This document shows, in pieces, positions 6,820-41,657 of a stretch of 46,232 nucleotides of DNA. The position numbers and the translations under genes were made by a program. A model generated the notes under the pieces. The model ran no database searches, was not told the origin of the DNA, and worked only from the letters and a program-made list of their open reading frames with translations. How positions within the stretch are numbered: the stretch's first letter is position 1; the number at the start of each line of letters is the position of its first letter. Source of the stretch: Methanoregulaceae archaeon PtaB.Bin056. GTDB taxonomy: Archaea; Halobacteriota; Methanomicrobia; Methanomicrobiales; Methanospirillaceae. Where the stretch lies: contig MVQD01000034.1 of the NCBI GenBank assembly GCA_002067095.1, positions 1-46,232 of the forward strand, read 5' to 3'.

Positions 6820-9800
6820 TTACCGCCACATCCCCCCGGGAACAACGATCTCAAACCTCACCCCCCTTCCCGGGACACCCGTCTCCCTGATTGTCATCCC
6901 GGTGATGGAGAGGATCTCCCTGGAGAGGAAGAGGCCAAGGCCAGTCCCCTTCCCATACCCCTTCTCGAATATCTTCTCCTTTTCATCCTGTGGGATTCCC
7001 ACGCCGTCGTCCTGAATCGAGATGACAAGGGAGTCATCGGCGATGCTGCATGAAGCGCAGACCCTGGTGATCTTCCCCCCGTACCTGGCGGCATTGTCAA
7101 GGAGGGCATAGAAGACCTTCTCAAGCAGTGGATCGGCAAAAATCTCGAACTGGCAGTCTTCTGAATGGAGCGTGACACTCCCCATGTCGACCTGGTCCCT
7201 GACCTTGCCGAGGGTTTTTGGAAAGTGCTGCCAGAGAGGTTCTTTTACTCCAAGTTCCTCGTAGTCGCGGGTGAACTCGAGGATCTGCCGGATGGACTGG
7301 ACTGCCCGGTTCTGGCGGTCGAGGCACCCTGCCATCTGTTCGTCCATGGCAAAGCTGCGGGCAAGCGAGATGTGCCCTGCAAGGACCGAGAGCTTGTTCG
7401 AGATGTCGTGGCGGGTGATGCTGCTGAGGAGGTTGAGCTTCCGGTTCGCCTGGACCAGTGCGTTCTGTATGCGCTTTTTCTCGGATATGTCCCGGAAAAT
7501 CACGAGAAACGCCGGTTCGCCCTCGCTCTTTGTTGCAGTGGCGATAACTTCCACATCGATCACCTTCCCGGAGAGCGTGATGAACTTCTCTTCGAGAGGG
7601 GGCATGACCGCGGCGGGGTCCTCCGTCATCCTGGCAATGCGCACCCTCACATCATCGCGTGAATCTGGATGGACAAAGTCAAGTGTCATCTTCCCGACGA
7701 TCTCGGCCCTGTCGGAGGCCCCCATGAGCCTGACTGCCACATCGTTTGCATAGATGATGCGCCCCTCCCTGTGGATGACCATTGCATCAAACGAGTGTTC
7801 GATCAGCCTCCGGTAACGCTCCTCGCTCTCGGCCAGCTCGTCCTGGTGCTGCCGGAGGTCATCAAGCATCTGGCGAAGTTCCTCCTCGGTTGCTGCAATC
7901 TGCTCGTACGAGGCGACGAGCTCGTCGTGCTCCCGCGCCAGTTCCTTCTGTATCCTCTTCTCCTCGGTAATATCCGTGAGCATGGCAAACGAACCGCGAA
8001 ATGCCCCCTTCTCATCGAGGAGCGGGGTGGCAGAGACATACATGATCCTTCGCGTCCCGCTGCGGGTGACAAAGGTCCGTTCGTACTTCCCGGGAAGCCC
8101 CCGCATCCTCTCTTCAAGGAGAGAACGTTGGATGTCCTTCTCTTCGTCTGCCATGAACGAATCGATGGGGCGGCCTATCATCTCTTCCGGGGAATAGCCA
8201 AGGATCTCGGCCATGCGGCGGTTCACATACGTGGTCGCGAAGTGCTCGTCCATTGCCCAGATGCCTTCGTGCGCGGTTTCGACGATCCGGCGGTATTTCT
8301 CCTCGCTTTTTCGTATCTCCTCCTGGGCCGCAAGTCGCTCGGTCAGGTCGGTTGCGATACTCAGCAACACCTTCTTTCCCATCCATTCGGTCAACAGGGT
8401 GTTGACGTGCAGAGGGACCGCGGTCCCGTCTTTTTTGAAGTGCTGCACATCAAAATCGCTCTCGCCGGTCTGCATTATCTTCTCGATCCTTGCCTGTATC
8501 AGCGCCTCGCTCTCGGGGACATCGAGATCGTGGAGGTTCATGGAGAGGAACTCGTCCCTTGTGTAGCCGTGGAGGTCAAGGGTCCGCTGGTTGGCATAGA
8601 GGAAATTTCCCTCGAGGTCGTGGACCGTGATGGAAGCGGGCGCACTGTCGAGGAGCTGGACAAGGATACGCAGGTGCTCGTCTGCCTTCCTGCGATCCGA
8701 GATATCGCGGATAATGCCCCGCGTTCCCTGCACTCTCCCGTCTCCTATGACCAAAGCCGCCTTCAGCTCCATGAAGAACCTGCCGCCGTCATTTCTGACC
8801 GCTTCGATTTCGAGCGTGAAATCCGGAACCCGCCCCGTCTCGATGCATTTCTGAAAGATTGGCAGTACCCTGTTATGCTCTCCTGGTGCCATGAACCGGG
8901 AGAAATGCTGTCCGCGCATCTCATCGGGTGAGGAGAATCCAAACATCTCTGCCAGCGTCCGGTTGGCAAAGGTGAGTATGCCGTCACGGTCTGTCATGAA
9001 GAACCCGTCACGGATCTCGTCGACAAGGGTGCGGTACTTCTCCTCGCTTGCGGCAAGCGCCTGCTGGATCGCCAGCCGGTCCGTGATGTCACGCGCGATG
9101 GCATAAATGAGTGTGCCGACCGGAAACGACCGCCACTCTATCCACCGATATCCCCCGTCCCTCGTCCGGTACCGGTTCACGAAGTTGGGGATGATCTCAC
9201 CCCGGCCGAGCCTCGCAACCGCATCACGCGTGCTTGCCCTGTCGTCCGGGTGCACGAACTCCATGAACGATCTCCCTTCAAGCTCGTCCAGGGGGTATCC
9301 AAGAGTCCTCTCCCACTCGGGGTTCAGCTTCCGGAAATATCCGTCCGTGTCAGCGATGCAGAGAAGGTCGATTGCATTCTGGAAGAAGAGGTCGAGTTCG
9401 CGGGTCTTCTCCCTGATCTCTGCTTCTGCGACCACACGTTCCGTGATGTCCCGGATTGCTTCTATCGCACCCACAAGGTTCCCGTCTTCGTCGTAAAGGC
9501 GGCACGCTTTCCCCCAGAAGTGAGTCGTACTCCCGTTTTCCCTTTCGACTGTCGTCTCTGCAGTCAGGAATGTCCCGTTCCTCTGCGTGAAGTGGTAATG
9601 CTCTCTTTCAAATTCTTGGTCAGGGGAGAGGACGAGATCGATCAGCATGGGGCGCAGTGTTCCGTAGAACGCTCGTGAATAGACTTGATTCCCCCTGCCC
9701 AGGACCGCAACGGCAGGGGTGCCGGTCATCTCCTCCATTGCCCGGTTCCACGCGATCACGGACCCTTCACGGTCGATCGCGAACGTGGCGTCCGGAAGGA

Positions 9801-10245
9801 AGTCGATGATGTCGGCGAGTCGCTTCTTTGATTCGATGAGAGACTGCTCGGCCCGCCGTTTCCCGATTGCCTGGCGGACCTTGTGGGCGAGTTCTGCGAA
9901 CTGGACCTTTGGGTCTCCCCCCTTCTGGAGGTAGAAATCCGCCCCTGCGTTGAGCGTATCGATCACCACCTCCTCTCTCCCCTTCCCGGTGAAGATGACA
10001 AACGGTATCCCGGAACCCCGCGTGCGGAGGGATTTGAGGAACGCGATTCCGTCCATCCCCGGCATCTGGTAATCGGAGATGATGGCATCAAATGCGGCAT
10101 TCCCGAGGACTGCGATGGCGGCCTGGGCAGAATCGACGCAATGAACGGAAAAATCTCCTGTACGCTCCAGGAAGATCTTTCCAAGGTCGAGGAGATCCTG
10201 GTCATCATCCACGTACATGACAGAGTAGGGACGATCAGCGACCAT
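6820..10245 (-). CDS. Hybrid sensor histidine kinase: REC, six PAS, HisKA-like, HATPase
   Basis: A soluble 1141-residue sensor kinase with no membrane helix. Residues 8-125 are a receiver domain with the acidic cluster VDDDQD (13-15), phospho-acceptor Asp58 in IISDYQMPG and Lys108. Six PAS-type units follow (about 140-265, 275-395, 398-515, 520-640, 645-765, 805-925), with a coiled coil (about 765-812) rich in Glu/Arg/Gln before the last. The kinase core has His946 in SITRHDISNKL, an Asn box DNAARYGG and DDGVGIP/GLGLF ATP-binding motifs. I chose the ATG at 10245; the in-frame TTG at 10293 would add 16 residues outside the receiver fold. The input is likely cytoplasmic redox, ligand or light via PAS cofactors. 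No partner regulator gene is adjacent. The gene is divergent from the UbiA gene. Confidence 0.92.
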   Translation of the reverse strand: MVADRPYSVMYVDDDQDLLDLGKIFLERTGDFSVHCVDSAQAAIAVLGNAAFDAIISDYQMPGMDGIAFLKSLRTRGSGIPFVIFTGKGREEVVIDTLNAGADFYLQKGGDPKVQFAELAHKVRQAIGKRRAEQSLIESKKRLADIIDFLPDATFAIDREGSVIAWNRAMEEMTGTPAVAVLGRGNQVYSRAFYGTLRPMLIDLVLSPDQEFEREHYHFTQRNGTFLTAETTVERENGSTTHFWGKACRLYDEDGNLVGAIEAIRDITERVVAEAEIREKTRELDLFFQNAIDLLCIADTDGYFRKLNPEWERTLGYPLDELEGRSFMEFVHPDDRASTRDAVARLGRGEIIPNFVNRYRTRDGGYRWIEWRSFPVGTLIYAIARDITDRLAIQQALAASEEKYRTLVDEIRDGFFMTDRDGILTFANRTLAEMFGFSSPDEMRGQHFSRFMAPGEHNRVLPIFQKCIETGRVPDFTLEIEAVRNDGGRFFMELKAALVIGDGRVQGTRGIIRDISDRRKADEHLRILVQLLDSAPASITVHDLEGNFLYANQRTLDLHGYTRDEFLSMNLHDLDVPESEALIQARIEKIMQTGESDFDVQHFKKDGTAVPLHVNTLLTEWMGKKVLLSIATDLTERLAAQEEIRKSEEKYRRIVETAHEGIWAMDEHFATTYVNRRMAEILGYSPEEMIGRPIDSFMADEEKDIQRSLLEERMRGLPGKYERTFVTRSGTRRIMYVSATPLLDEKGAFRGSFAMLTDITEEKRIQKELAREHDELVASYEQIAATEEELRQMLDDLRQHQDELAESEERYRRLIEHSFDAMVIHREGRIIYANDVAVRLMGASDRAEIVGKMTLDFVHPDSRDDVRVRIARMTEDPAAVMPPLEEKFITLSGKVIDVEVIATATKSEGEPAFLVIFRDISEKKRIQNALVQANRKLNLLSSITRHDISNKLSVLAGHISLARSFAMDEQMAGCLDRQNRAVQSIRQILEFTRDYEELGVKEPLWQHFPKTLGKVRDQVDMGSVTLHSEDCQFEIFADPLLEKVFYALLDNAARYGGKITRVCASCSIADDSLVISIQDDGVGIPQDEKEKIFEKGYGKGTGLGLFLSREILSITGMTIRETGVPGRGVRFEIVVPGGMWR

Positions 10246-10390
10246 ACCTACAACTCTCTTTTCCCGGTAATGAACACTGTGGAATATACGCAAAAAGAGA
10301 GGGTCGCTCGCAGAGACCCATCCGCACGTTCCCTATGGTTTTTCCCAATCAGAGAGTGTATGTACCAGGAGTATACTACACTACTACAGC

Positions 10391-34451: not shown

Positions 34452-36155
34452 TTATCTGGGAGTCGATTTCTTCCTGTAGCCGCCTTCAGGGACCAGGATC
34501 TCGAAGCGGACACCTTTCCCGGGAACACCGGTCTCCGCGATGCTGATGCCGGTAATCGAGAGGATCTGGCTGGTAAGAAACATCCCGAGTCCCCTCTGAG
34601 GCGTGATCTCCTGGTCGAAGAGATGCTCTTTGATATCCGCCGGGATTCCCACGCCGTCGTCCTCGTAGAGGATCATCAGCCCTTTTTTGGTCTCCTGTGC
34701 CGAGACCCTGATGGCTTTCAATCCCTCCCCGCCATGCTTGAGTGAGTTCTCAAAAAGATTGTAAAATACCTTCTCGAAGAGGGGATCGGCAAATATCTCA
34801 TACACGATCCCTTCTTCCATGACCTGGAGGTGTTCAAGCGGAAGGGCGCCCCGCGCCCGCGTGATCGCCAGACCAATATCCTGCCATGTGGCACTCTTCA
34901 CTCCCATGTCCTGGTAGTCCTTCGTGAAGTTGATCTGGCGCTCGATGTTGGTTGTCACCTTCTTTGCCTTCTCAAGGAAGTTTCGCTGCTGTTGATTGTC
35001 TGCATCGGGGTCCCCTGCAAGTTCGAGGTACCCTTTCAGCGCCAGCAGCTGGTTGAGGATGTCATGGCGGGTGATGCTGTTCAGTAAATTGAGTTTCTGG
35101 TTTGCCCGCAGGAGTGCTTTTTCTGCCTGTTTCCGCTCGGTGATATCCTCAATTGTGGCAATTGCACCCGAATACTCGTTGTTGTCTGAGAAGATGGGAT
35201 GCGCGAGGATTCTGACAGAAGAGACCTTTCCCGTCGAAAGCGACCGGTACTCTCCCTCGTAATAGGTGGGTTTTCCCTTTGGGATATCCCGCAGTGCGGC
35301 ACTCAATCCGGGGTCCTGGAGCTGGGTATGGATGTGAATGCCGGTCATTTCGTCCGGCGTCATCCCAAGGATCTCCCCGCACTTCTGGTTGGCCATGACG
35401 ATCGTGCCGTCCCTGTCCACCTGGACAACGCCTACCGGCGAACGGGTGAAGAGGAGGCGGTAGCGAGCTTCGCTCTCCTGAATGGCTTTTTGAGACGAGG
35501 AGAGGATCTCGCGTTCTTTTTCGTTGCGTTCGAGTATGACGAGGAACGAGAGTGTCAGGATAAGGACCATCCCTGTCCCGAGAATTGGTGGGAGTGCCGC
35601 GCCAAGAAGGATCAAGACCCAGTTATTCGCATCAACGTCAAGCCCGAAAATTCCATAGAGATCTCCTGTGTCGGGATCCTTGACCGGGATAAATGCGGTG
35701 ATCCATGTTCCCCAGCGATCAGTATCCGGGCCGGCCGTCATCTCTTTTCCGGATGTGAATGCCTCGATGGTGTAAACCGTCGCTTCGCTATAGATCTGTC
35801 CCGGGGGCGAATAGTCCTTTGAGTCGGGAGACTCGGAATCGACAAAGAAGAAGATCTCTCCATCGTCGTTCATCCCCATGAGGTAGGCGAACCGGACCTG
35901 CCTGTCAGCCGCAACCACCCCCTCCATCGTGCGCTTCATGTGAAGGTACACGGAAGAGTCCAGGTCTGCCTCTGACCCGGAAAGTGCCTCAATATCTTTA
36001 TAATCCAGGCAATTCGCCGCAATCTTCGCTTTTATGAGGAGGTTGTTCCGCTGGATATAGTCCTCGGTCTGCACATTCCATGCCGTGAGGAGAGCCCCCG
36101 TGATCAGGACCAGGATACATGCAACCTTCAGCCACCAGCGGAAATCGTGCGACAT
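34452..36155 (-). CDS. Membrane sensor histidine kinase with PAS domain
   Basis: A 567-residue two-helix membrane kinase. Helix 1 spans about 8-28 and helix 2 about 195-222; between them is an extracytoplasmic sensor domain of cache-like type, marked by RFAYLMGMNDDGEIFFFVDSES, SPPGQIYSEA and DRWGTWITAFIPV. A PAS domain (about 245-350) follows. The phospho-acceptor His364 is in SITRHDILNQL; the ATPase domain has ENSLKHGG, DDGVGIP and GLGMF. The C-terminal block ending GVRFEILVPEGGYR closely matches the kinases at 6820 and 36779, so the three are paralogues. I chose the start at 36155, which gives a short positively balanced N-terminus before helix 1. No response regulator gene is nearby. Confidence 0.9.
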   Translation of the reverse strand: MSHDFRWWLKVACILVLITGALLTAWNVQTEDYIQRNNLLIKAKIAANCLDYKDIEALSGSEADLDSSVYLHMKRTMEGVVAADRQVRFAYLMGMNDDGEIFFFVDSESPDSKDYSPPGQIYSEATVYTIEAFTSGKEMTAGPDTDRWGTWITAFIPVKDPDTGDLYGIFGLDVDANNWVLILLGAALPPILGTGMVLILTLSFLVILERNEKEREILSSSQKAIQESEARYRLLFTRSPVGVVQVDRDGTIVMANQKCGEILGMTPDEMTGIHIHTQLQDPGLSAALRDIPKGKPTYYEGEYRSLSTGKVSSVRILAHPIFSDNNEYSGAIATIEDITERKQAEKALLRANQKLNLLNSITRHDILNQLLALKGYLELAGDPDADNQQQRNFLEKAKKVTTNIERQINFTKDYQDMGVKSATWQDIGLAITRARGALPLEHLQVMEEGIVYEIFADPLFEKVFYNLFENSLKHGGEGLKAIRVSAQETKKGLMILYEDDGVGIPADIKEHLFDQEITPQRGLGMFLTSQILSITGISIAETGVPGKGVRFEILVPEGGYRKKSTPR

Positions 36156-36334
36156 TGGGTATAACAGATGGATATGAGAGAACACATCTTAAGGCTGGTG
36201 CTTTTCCGGCAATTCCCCCCCGGGCGAAGCGGGGCAACCGGCGGAAATAACAATCGCCGGGCCTGCGGGAATATTTCCGGCATTCCCCGACATCTACCTT
36301 TATTTGGTTCTCCACAGATGCTACCCTGCAGGCA

Positions 36335-36778: not shown

Positions 36779-38620
36779 TTACTCGGATGGTTCCCGCTTC
36801 ATAGGTTCGACATTTGCCCCTTCCAGCTGTCCACCGGCAAAGGCAAACCGCTCACGGATCGTCGGAGGGAGCTCGTCCTCCCGTATCGAGAAAAAGCCGT
36901 ACTTCCCGTAGAACTCCGTCAGGTTCAGGACCGAGTGCATATAGAGGGGTTCATGGCCGCAGGCCTCGATCAGCGCCCTTACGGTCAGGTGGGCATACCC
37001 GTGCCCGCGGTGTGCGACGGGAGTGAAGACCGCGTCCACCTCGAGGCCGTCGGGATGGCGCCGGCACCGGGCAAGGGAGACCGCGGCTCCCCCTGCAAAT
37101 GCCGCAAATATCCTGTCGGTTGCAGGGTCACCTTTCGTCTGGTGGTAATCCATCCACAGTTCGTCTGCAACTGGAAACTCGGCCGAGAGGAGTTCCCTTC
37201 CAAAGGCCTCCTTGCCCGCGGGGTGAGCGTCCGGTAGAGGGAGAGGAAACGGCGGCGCATCTTCTGATGACCCCTCGATGCGCCAGTTCCCGTCAGGTAT
37301 CCGGATCACAAAACGCGCTCCCTTCCCTGGCCTCCCCACCTCTGAGATGCCCATCCCTGTCACCGAGAGGATCTGCCGGCAGATGAAGAGGCCGAGACCC
37401 GCGTGCCGGCCGGCGTCGTACTCGAATATCGATTCCTTCTTCTCCTCCGGTATGCCGCAGCCGTCGTCCTCCACGATTAGTTCAAGGGCGCCGGGGGTCT
37501 CGCGGTAGGACACGATCAGGTTTTTGGCGGTAAGGCCGTGGCGGATGGCGTTCTCCACCAGGTGAGACATGACGTCGCGGAAGAGGGGGTCAGCGTACAC
37601 CTCGAGGCGTTCTGCCCAGAACCGTACCGAGATGTTCCTGCCGGCCCCGCTCGTGTCTGCCTGCCGGAGCGCCTCCTGTACCCGGATCCATTCCGGGGGG
37701 GACGCACCGAGGTCCTGGTAGGTCTCTGTGAGGAAGATCTGCCGCGCGAGAGTCCATGCCATTCCGCGGACCTTGTCGAGGAAGCCGATCGTACTCGTAT
37801 CCTTGCATTTTTCGGACGCCTCATCCACCGTCTCGATGATCTCGTTCACGGTCCGGTGGAGGTGATCAGAAGAGATCCTTGCGAGGAGGGAGAGCTTCTC
37901 GTTGGCCGTCCGCAGGGCTTCTTCCGCGTTCACCATCCCGGTTATATCCACGCCGGTGATGATGGCGCGGTTGCCGGGAAGCGCGGCAATCGAGAAGAGA
38001 ACATGCTGAACGCTCCCGTCCGGGGTTGTCACCACGGCCCGCTCCGCGTAGATCCTCCCCTCGGCAGCGAGTCGCTGGAAGAGCGCCCGCTCAACGTCTT
38101 CCGACAGGAACGCCGTGAGTGGCGCCCCCCTGAGGGATGCGATCTCCCGCCCCAGGAGGCGTGAGGCGTTCCAGTTCACTTCTTCAACGATCCACCTCCC
38201 TTCAATCTGCCGTGCAAGAATACTTCCCGCTTCCGAGTTGTCGAAGAGACCGCGGTAACGGTCTTCCTGCTCCCGGAGCCTCCCTGAGAGCATGGCTATC
38301 AGCCAGCCTATCAGGACGACGACACACACCCGGATAAGGGCCTCGATGAAGAGAGGGGTTCCCGTTCCGCTTACGAGCAGGACGAGGAGGAGATACCCCC
38401 CTCCAATCCCTGCGGAGATTGCGATACCATGCCGGGGGAAACGATAGGCACCGATGACCACCGGGATGTAGAGGAGGTGAGGGAAGACAATGGTGATACC
38501 AAAAAAGAGGCCGACGAGGTTGAGGAGGAGTGCGGCTCCCGTGGTGACAATGAGCGCCGCGTTCCAGGCGCCGTCCCTGCCATCGAAGAGATTCGGCGCC
38601 TTCATGGAGAGTTCTCCCAT
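36779..38620 (-). CDS. Sensor histidine kinase fused to GNAT acetyltransferase
   Basis: A 613-residue protein in one uninterrupted frame. About four membrane helices (residues about 15-115) are followed by a single PAS domain (about 122-235), a dimerisation region, an ATPase domain (ENAIRHG, DDGCGIP, GLGLF; about 330-448) and a C-terminal N-acetyltransferase-like domain (about 480-605) with the acetyl-CoA motif VFTPVAHRGHGYA and LTEFYGKYGFFSI. In the aligned phospho-acceptor region its paralogues read ITRHD, whereas this one reads ISSDH (Asp252-His253), so the normal His position is Asp. The start at 38620 has GGAG 8 bases upstream; an ATG at 38605 with GGGAG is equally possible. It may be a sensor that controls acetylation directly. 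Confidence 0.87.
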   Translation of the reverse strand: MGELSMKAPNLFDGRDGAWNAALIVTTGAALLLNLVGLFFGITIVFPHLLYIPVVIGAYRFPRHGIAISAGIGGGYLLLVLLVSGTGTPLFIEALIRVCVVVLIGWLIAMLSGRLREQEDRYRGLFDNSEAGSILARQIEGRWIVEEVNWNASRLLGREIASLRGAPLTAFLSEDVERALFQRLAAEGRIYAERAVVTTPDGSVQHVLFSIAALPGNRAIITGVDITGMVNAEEALRTANEKLSLLARISSDHLHRTVNEIIETVDEASEKCKDTSTIGFLDKVRGMAWTLARQIFLTETYQDLGASPPEWIRVQEALRQADTSGAGRNISVRFWAERLEVYADPLFRDVMSHLVENAIRHGLTAKNLIVSYRETPGALELIVEDDGCGIPEEKKESIFEYDAGRHAGLGLFICRQILSVTGMGISEVGRPGKGARFVIRIPDGNWRIEGSSEDAPPFPLPLPDAHPAGKEAFGRELLSAEFPVADELWMDYHQTKGDPATDRIFAAFAGGAAVSLARCRRHPDGLEVDAVFTPVAHRGHGYAHLTVRALIEACGHEPLYMHSVLNLTEFYGKYGFFSIREDELPPTIRERFAFAGGQLEGANVEPMKREPSE

Positions 38621-39354: not shown

Positions 39355-39515
39355 GTATGATCAGGCTGAGTGATGGGCATCACGGAAAAAAAGCATTGCC
39401 GGCCCCGCATACTTTTTCGAGCCGGATGCCCTGGAAGCTGGATCCCTGCAGGAGACACAGGGACGTCCCGCTCAAACCGGCTGGCTTATTCCCTCCCGGG
39501 ACAGACGTGATCCCG

Positions 39516-41657
39516 ATGGCCGGCGAGGAAGCGGACAGGAGACGGTTCCGGTTCTCGGTAAAGACCAAGATCCTCCTCGTATTCCTGGCCCTGTCTGTCG
39601 GCGCACTGCTTGCCACCGGTATCCTCGCATTTGTCCAGATCGGTGATGTGAGCAGGTATGCAGTGGAGAGCAGCAGTGCACTCGGCGATCGCGCCGTCGA
39701 GGACAGCACCGCGGCAATGGAGAGGGATGCACGGGAATCGCTGCTGCTGCTGGCACGCGACCAGGCGTCTATCAGCAACATCATATTCGACCGCTTTTCC
39801 GGTGAGATAGAGATGATGGCGCACTATGCGCGTGAGATTCAGGCAGATCCTGCGCGGGTGCGGCCCCGACACTTCTATCTCCAGGACGAGGAGCCACAAG
39901 ACCCCGCCTCGACCACCGTCCTCTTCCTCTCGCCGGGAGTGGAGAACGATATTCCCCTCGAGGAGCGCGACGCCGCCGGGATGATGACCGATATCTTCAT
40001 CCCGCTCTTTGCATCTGACAGGAACCTTGCCGCGGTCTACGTCGGGACCGACAGCGGAATGGCATTCATCTATCCGTGGTTCACCGGCATGGATGCAAGC
40101 TTTGATCCCCGGTTGAGGGGATGGTTCCGGCAGGCAAAGGAGACCGGCGCAAAGACCTGGTCAGAGCCTTACGTCGACCTCCTCGGCCATGGCCTGATGA
40201 TGACCTGCTCGATCCCGGTCTCAGACCCCAAGAGAGGATGGTTCTGGGTAATAGGGGCTGACGTGACCATCGAGACCATCAACCAGAACATCATCGGGAC
40301 TCAGGTTGGCGATTCAGGATATGCGATGCTCATCGACCAGCACGGAAACGTCATCACGAGGCCGGGCCTCTCATCGGGCGACATGCGCTGGGACGAGTCA
40401 TTCGTGACCGAGAACCTCCTCGAGAGCGGAAATGCCGGTCTCGTCGAAGTCGCAAGGGAGATGACGGCCGGCAGGGAGGGTGTCGCGAGGGTCAGCTTCG
40501 AAGGGGGGGACCGTTTTATCGCCTATGCACCCGTGAAGAGCGTGAACTGGAGTGTGGGTGTGGTGATGCCTGTCGATGAGGTGATTGCACCCGCACTCTC
40601 GACCCGGCAAATCATACTCGGCGCATCCTTTGAGACGGCATCGCATATCACCCGTCAGCAGGAGCAGCTGAGGACCACCTTTACCGGCATATTCCTCATC
40701 CTCATCGTCGTGGTGATCGTCCTCTCACTTGTCTTTTCACGATACCTCACCCGGCCTCTCGAAGACCTGAAGAGGGGGTCAGAAGCCTTCGGGAAGGGAG
40801 ACCTGGACTACCGGGTGGAGGCGCACACCGGAGATGAGTTCGAGGACCTCGCAGTCTCTTTCAACCGTATGGCGAAGGACCTAAAAGAGCATATCCGGTC
40901 TCTTCGCCTCACCACTGCCGAGAAGGAACGGATACAGAAGGAGCTTGAGATCGCGAGGGGTATCCAGCAGAGTTTCCTCCCCGAATCGGCGCCGCACATA
41001 CCCGGGATAGACCTTGAAGGGGTGAATCTCCCGGCAGCCGAGGTCGGAGGGGACTTCTATGACTTCATCCCGGTAGGGAGCACGAGCTGGGGCCTCGTCA
41101 TTGCAGATGTCTCCGGGAAGGGTGTCCCCGCCGCCCTCTTCATGGCACTCTCGCGAACCCTCATCAGGGCGAGCGCATCACGGAATCCGGACCCTGTGGC
41201 CTCAATACGCGAGGCGAACCGCTCGATTTACCTTGACTCAAAGACCAGCATGTTCGTCACCCTGTTCTATGCAATCCTCGACATCCGGAAAAAGACCATT
41301 ACCTTCGTGAATGCCGGGCATAATCCCCCGCTCCTCCTCGCGTCGGGAAGCGAGGGCATCACCCTCCTGAAGGCAAGGGGCATCGCACTCGGGGTGATCG
41401 ACGAGGTCGATCTCGAGCCGGTCGAGGTTGCGCTCTCCCCGGGCGATGTCATGGTCCTCTATACTGACGGGGTGACGGAGGCGACGAACGAACGCGACGA
41501 GGAGTACGGGGTGGAACGGCTCTCCTCACTCGTAACGGCTTCGACGGGGCTTTCGGCAAAGGAGATCATCAATGCAATCGTCAGAGACGTCACTGCGTTC
41601 GCAGGCTCGCGGCCGCAGTTCGACGATATCACCCTGATGGTGCTGAAGGTGAAGTGA
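39516..41657 (+). CDS. Membrane cache-HAMP-SpoIIE phosphatase
   Basis: A 713-residue signalling protein that would dephosphorylate a serine/threonine-phosphorylated partner in response to an external ligand. Helix 1 spans about 13-36; a long double-cache extracytoplasmic domain (about 60-380) includes YPWFTGMDASFDPRLRGWF and KTWSEPYVD; helix 2 spans about 390-412; a HAMP unit (SRYLTRPLEDLKRGSEAFGKGDLDYRV) and coiled coil lead to a SpoIIE/PP2C domain (about 490-713). Its metal Asp residues are in EVGGDFYDF, IADVSGKG, LYTDGVTEA and DDITLMV. No anti-sigma-like kinase or STAS antagonist gene is beside it, so the target is unknown. The ATG at 39516 was chosen because the first membrane helix begins soon after. 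Confidence 0.92.
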   Translation: MAGEEADRRRFRFSVKTKILLVFLALSVGALLATGILAFVQIGDVSRYAVESSSALGDRAVEDSTAAMERDARESLLLLARDQASISNIIFDRFSGEIEMMAHYAREIQADPARVRPRHFYLQDEEPQDPASTTVLFLSPGVENDIPLEERDAAGMMTDIFIPLFASDRNLAAVYVGTDSGMAFIYPWFTGMDASFDPRLRGWFRQAKETGAKTWSEPYVDLLGHGLMMTCSIPVSDPKRGWFWVIGADVTIETINQNIIGTQVGDSGYAMLIDQHGNVITRPGLSSGDMRWDESFVTENLLESGNAGLVEVAREMTAGREGVARVSFEGGDRFIAYAPVKSVNWSVGVVMPVDEVIAPALSTRQIILGASFETASHITRQQEQLRTTFTGIFLILIVVVIVLSLVFSRYLTRPLEDLKRGSEAFGKGDLDYRVEAHTGDEFEDLAVSFNRMAKDLKEHIRSLRLTTAEKERIQKELEIARGIQQSFLPESAPHIPGIDLEGVNLPAAEVGGDFYDFIPVGSTSWGLVIADVSGKGVPAALFMALSRTLIRASASRNPDPVASIREANRSIYLDSKTSMFVTLFYAILDIRKKTITFVNAGHNPPLLLASGSEGITLLKARGIALGVIDEVDLEPVEVALSPGDVMVLYTDGVTEATNERDEEYGVERLSSLVTASTGLSAKEIINAIVRDVTAFAGSRPQFDDITLMVLKVK

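Follow-up and report, generated by a model that had tools for sequence, protein, structure and literature searches.

In the present analysis, we find that one gene of Methanoregulaceae archaeon PtaB.Bin056 joins a membrane-bound histidine-kinase-like transmitter to a C-terminal GNAT acetyltransferase domain, and that the transmitter lacks the histidine that normally accepts the phosphoryl group. As far as sequence comparison can tell, the gene is intact, the acceptor histidine has been lost, the residues of the ATP site and of the CoA loop have been kept, and the kinase-like and GNAT parts are inherited together. We will argue that the fusion is probably a pseudo-histidine-kinase that senses nucleotides and regulates the acetyltransferase by allostery, in cis or in trans, and that cells may in this way convert a signal to acetylation without the usual phosphate relay.

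The gene is one open frame on the minus strand of the window (the whole analysed stretch, 46,232 nucleotides of contig MVQD01000034.1), at 36779-38605. The ATG at 38605 is the point from which the homologues align. A start at 38620 is still possible; in a relative with 87% identity (L032), the equivalent position carries no start codon. With the start at 38605, the altered acceptor pair is D247/H248 of a protein of 608 amino acids. The original prediction had seen the same two residues, and only its numbering, Asp252 and His253 as counted from 38620, has to be changed. The features are as follows.

36779..38605, minus strand: pseudo-histidine-kinase-GNAT fusion, 608 aa (open frame and Pfam; start by conservation)
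38276..38581, minus strand: four predicted membrane helices, DUF4118-like but sub-threshold (AF2 helices 9-35, 41-55, 60-79 and 84-122; Pfam DUF4118 E 0.026)
37940..38275, minus strand: PAS domain, residues 111-222 (Pfam, TIGR00229, AF2)
37700..37939, minus strand: DHp-like helical region, residues 223-302 (AF2 helices 222-245, 248-266 and 270-298; alignment to histidine kinase paralogues)
37862..37867, minus strand: former phospho-acceptor position D247 (His in canonical histidine kinases) and H248 (alignment)
37286..37699, minus strand: HATPase_c ATP-binding-type domain, residues 303-440 (Pfam; invariant N352, D380, G382, G384, G403, G405)
37550..37564, minus strand: N box, H348 to N352 (alignment)
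37208..37285, minus strand: HATPase-GNAT linker, the least conserved segment (homologue alignment)
36782..37207, minus strand: GNAT acetyltransferase domain, residues 467-608 (Pfam, AF2, structure comparison)
36992..37009, minus strand: GNAT motif A, CoA pyrophosphate loop RGHGYA, R533-A538 (R/QxxGxG/A as defined in PMC8556138)

Pfam recognizes HATPase_c in the protein with an E-value of 2.7e-17, Acetyltransf_1 at 4e-4, which is over its cut-off, and PAS_9 at 6.6e-5, slightly under the curated cut-off; no HisKA match was obtained at E 0.1. The full-length AF2 model (mean pLDDT 79) consists of the membrane helices, the PAS domain, the helical DHp-like region, the HATPase domain and the GNAT domain. 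The same architecture was found in 49 distinct homologues from Methanolinea/Methanoregula-type genomes (Methanomicrobiales), called type A in the following. These homologues rule out a sequencing error or an accidental joining of two genes, and the single-frame fusion proposed by the original prediction is thus genuine. Compared with an 87%-identical relative, the gene as a whole has a dN/dS of 0.07/0.59 and its DHp part one of 0.05/0.76. Every domain is under purifying selection (dN/dS 0.06-0.20, with the HATPase at about 0.2), and the sensor parts and the linker are the least conserved regions.

We now turn to the acceptor box. It reads ISSDH in the fusion and ITRHD in both paralogues of the window (34452-36185 and 6820-10293), as had been claimed; the gap-free placement comes from the multiple alignment, while the pairwise alignment with one of the paralogues has a gap beside the box. 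None of the 49 type-A fusions has histidine at the canonical position (46 Asp, two Glu, one Gly), and the following residue is His in 46, Tyr in two and Arg in one. The altered box therefore co-occurs with this type of fusion, and no orthologue has ITRHD; a loss shared so widely, in a gene under purifying selection, is not a chance feature of one sequence. The histidine kinase paralogues of the same genome have the acceptor histidine in 14 of 16 cases. One of them, unfused (L010), has Gln at the acceptor position and the N-box His of the GNAT-linked proteins described below, and groups with a Methanoregula protein carrying Arg at the acceptor; it is possibly another pseudo-histidine-kinase.

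The ATP site, on the other hand, is intact, in agreement with the original prediction. The N, G1, F and G2 boxes of HATPase_c are all present, the six residues listed above are invariant among the type-A fusions, as is F394, and the ATP-site residues do not change even in homologues with as little as 51% identity. All type-A fusions begin the N box with His, where most of the canonical histidine kinases compared have Asn. From the conserved site and the missing acceptor, we infer that the protein binds ATP and has no autokinase activity.

The assignment to the GNAT fold is also firm. The model of this domain alone has a pLDDT of 87.4, the best Foldseek E-value is 3e-7, and Z-scores of 13-15 are obtained to solved GNATs (Foldseek, VIA-align 2). 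In the CoA loop, R533, G534 and G536 are invariant among homologues and A538 is nearly so; the canonical fold and this loop support the GNAT domain of the original prediction. The top structural match is N-acetylglutamate synthase (Z 15.2 over 138 residues, 3.0 Å, 20% identity), with GCN5, RimI, ElaA and Ard1 types ranking close behind. Sequence-family searches of the window GNAT returned no family that names a substrate. An assignment as ArgA/NAGS was rejected, since the resemblance is structural only and the amino-acid N-acetyltransferase models score far under their cut-offs. AblB, the beta-lysine acetyltransferase of osmolyte synthesis (TIGR03827), was discarded as well; the window GNAT gave no NCBIfam match to it, and a search of the genome for AblB, in which control genomes gave matches, was negative.

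Searching genome contigs with the fusion protein returned close relatives and generic histidine kinases only. Matches to the GNAT part occur in 91 of the 108 family genomes and in 168 of 232 genomes across the order; outside the order, in a phylum-wide sample, they are only weak (best 1.4e-5). The open frames fall into length classes of about 615-680 aa (histidine-kinase-GNAT), 410-530 aa (mostly USP-USP-GNAT) and 150-250 aa (GNAT with little or nothing else), with the domain make-up checked by Pfam on ten examples. Besides the fusion, the genome encodes one USP-USP-GNAT (L016, USP by similarity) and one stand-alone GNAT (L012). The tandem universal-stress-protein form with the same GNAT family (L016, L098) is widespread in Methanomicrobiales. 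In one relative (G032, 2 contigs; L075:3465-3480), an in-frame TAG at the invariant GNAT tryptophan W484 separates the kinase and GNAT parts; this could be a pseudogene, an error or read-through.

In related genomes the kinase-like and GNAT parts are split, with the kinase gene, which has the same orientation, ending within a few bases of the GNAT gene or running into its open frame. In a tree of DHp-HATPase regions without the acceptor columns, the GNAT-linked kinase-like proteins, whether fused or adjacent, all fall into a single clade apart from the canonical histidine kinases (SH-aLRT 99, from a quick tree). The HK1 genes that lie beside some GNAT-linked genes fall outside it, with the canonical kinases. 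The GNAT tree has a type-A branch with support of 96, and the other kinase-linked GNATs broadly follow the grouping of their partners. Type A and HK2-GNAT are separate branches, so that at least two fusion branches exist. Because fused and adjacent split genes alternate, the kinase and GNAT parts are likely to be functionally coupled (the Rosetta-stone argument). It is important to note that adjacency and fusion speak for coupling as such, and for neither its direction nor allostery.

Of the 114 GNAT-linked kinase-like proteins, 10 still have the acceptor histidine, compared to 49 of the 53 readable histidine kinases outside the clade, among them most paralogues of the same genome. The histidine is found in 0 of 30 kinase genes adjoining USP-USP-GNAT (group g27, which we assign to Methanoculleus from indirect evidence; N 20, S 5, R 3, D 2), in 3 of 23 HK2 genes adjoining a GNAT (T in 19, I in one), in 5 of 7 fused HK2-GNAT proteins and in 2 of the remaining 5. 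The clade has 120 members, six of them without a GNAT in the fetched stretch, and the same 10 histidines. Losses number 5 to 8, with at least five changes by parsimony and eight when regain is forbidden (the FastTree tree was used for counting only). Since HK2-GNAT often keeps the histidine, fusion to a GNAT does not as such require its loss, and since several second-branch members, fused and adjacent, have it, phosphotransfer may persist in parts of the clade. In four loci (L097, L101, L115, L116), a canonical HK1 (ITRHD), a pseudo-HK2 (RTDL) and the GNAT follow each other on one strand.

These comparisons bear on two further points of the original prediction. It had described the His and the Asp of the box as exchanged, but in the sister lineages, the acceptor position of the kinase-like genes directly upstream of GNAT or USP-USP-GNAT is occupied by N, S, T, R or Q, with the Asp at +1 retained. 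The +1 His is restricted to type A within the GNAT-linked clade, and we thus read the pattern as loss of the acceptor with later changes on top, rather than as a swap. The suggestion that phosphorylation had moved, if taken as a move to the neighbouring His, is weakened accordingly, since this His is found in the fused branch only, where three of the 49 members have Tyr or Arg instead.

The neighbours of the fusion differ among the 35 type-A loci, and no conserved partner or response-regulator gene was recognized there (by inspection of noisy neighbour clusters). In the window, a canonical histidine kinase (34452-36185) lies 0.6 kb downstream; such a gene is found near only some of the Methanolinea copies. 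A divergent gene at 39357-41657 encodes a dCache-HAMP-SpoIIE membrane protein (PP2C-type phosphatase), and a similar gene is near the fusion again in a few other loci.

Kinase-like proteins with a PAS domain that are thought to signal without phosphotransfer through an acceptor histidine include Azotobacter NifL, DivL and the plant phytochromes. NifL (9qq6), DivL (4q20) and phytochrome A are among the Foldseek matches of the full model, alongside many ordinary histidine kinases. NifL acts on a transcription activator by protein binding, whereas the output of the fusion is an enzyme carried by the same polypeptide. In N-acetylglutamate synthase (ArgA), too, a GNAT is linked to a regulatory domain that is kinase-like; that domain resembles amino-acid kinases, whereas the one in the fusion is of the GHKL type. 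The GHKL domain of NifL binds ADP, and the protein under its control is NifA (PMC8219145). The MA_type 2 kinases RdmS and MsmS of Methanosarcina are similar in being kinase-like without a functional H-box and with the ATP-binding domain kept, and such H-box-less kinases bind and hydrolyse ATP without autophosphorylation (PMC11784639). There, the whole H-box is missing, the one tested is cytoplasmic, and no output domain was noted for them. In the fusion, by contrast, the DHp helices are present, the box aligns with only the acceptor substituted, and the output is a GNAT.

A close parallel in layout is given by the Type III bacterial GNATs (the cAMP-GNAT MtPat/MsPat, ACT-GNAT and NADP-GNAT), in which an N-terminal regulatory ligand-binding domain precedes the GNAT, an arrangement read as allosteric control of acetylation (PMC8556138). 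In the fusion, the putative regulatory part is a PAS-DHp-HATPase transmitter in the membrane, and its nucleotide-binding-type domain, recognized by Pfam N-terminal to the GNAT, might affect GNAT activity. That review of bacterial GNATs does not refer to histidine kinases, and USP is not among its regulatory domains (PMC8556138); acetyltransferases are absent from the archaeal two-component census (PMC5847659). In the open-access literature searched, we found no described GNAT regulated by a histidine kinase, HATPase or USP domain, and no histidine-kinase-GNAT fusion. The fusion would be a regulated GNAT whose regulatory module is unusual or, seen from the other side, a histidine-kinase-like protein with an unusual output, and USP-USP-GNAT appears to be a second regulated-GNAT architecture, undescribed in the same literature.

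In the mechanism that we favour, a signal at the membrane helices or the PAS domain would alter the DHp helical bundle, and with it the ATP (or ADP) state and the position of the HATPase domains. This change would expose or restrain the GNAT domain on its flexible linker, and the enzyme would then acetylate an amine, i.e. a protein lysine, an N-terminus or a small molecule. In related genera, where the two parts are separate adjacent genes, they would work in trans; many others of the family have a GNAT with tandem USP domains instead. The mechanism is favoured by the missing acceptor next to an invariant ATP site, the single clade, the alternation of fused and split genes and the lack of a recognized response-regulator gene nearby, and the H-box-less Methanosarcina kinases and NifL are precedents for it.

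The conservation of D247 and H248 (94% each, above most DHp sites) is not predicted by plain loss of function, and it is the reason for keeping another option, in which D247 (as aspartyl phosphate) or H248 is phosphorylated, or the pair activates water as an ATPase timer, with the cycle gating the GNAT. The acidic residue in 48 of 49 fusions, the His in 46 and the intact ATP site are in line with this. However, H248 is Tyr in two and Arg in one otherwise intact homologue, and D247 is Gly in one. Since the sister lineages, with their normal +1 Asp, do without the pair, it is not needed for GNAT-linked function in general, and we consider this scenario unlikely.

Another option considered was a heteromer, in which a canonical histidine kinase supplies phosphorylation or signal input to the pseudo-kinase. 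HK1 genes do lie directly upstream of HK2 or HK2-GNAT in several genomes, and the window has its own candidate at 34452-36185; this association belongs to the second branch and not to the Methanolinea/Methanoregula type, where the neighbours vary as described above, and we regard the heteromer as quite improbable. We have also considered that the kinase part is a mere membrane-localising and dimerising scaffold of an old fusion, with a constitutively active GNAT and no nucleotide regulation. The poorly conserved linker and sensor parts would fit, as would the GNAT relatives that occur alone or with USP domains, but a scaffold would not need the residues of the ATP site, and their invariance, together with the HATPase dN/dS, renders this case very unlikely. 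The allosteric pseudo-histidine-kinase is therefore our preferred reading.

A bolder version, which we regard as speculative and rather doubtful, is a signal-to-acetylation family specific to Methanomicrobiales, in which a kinase-derived ATPase switch drives the GNAT without a response regulator, possibly with the Asp-His pair as an ATPase timer or as a substitute phospho-site. HATPase and USP domains would be interchangeable nucleotide sensors in such a family.

Phosphotransfer normally defines the two-component transmitter, which here has apparently been turned into a nucleotide switch with the enzyme on the same chain. The occurrence of fused, split and USP-bearing forms within one order makes it possible to reconstruct the order of acceptor loss, fusion and module replacement. 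If the proposal is correct, it would tie membrane sensing to acetylation in methanogens and extend the list of regulated GNATs.
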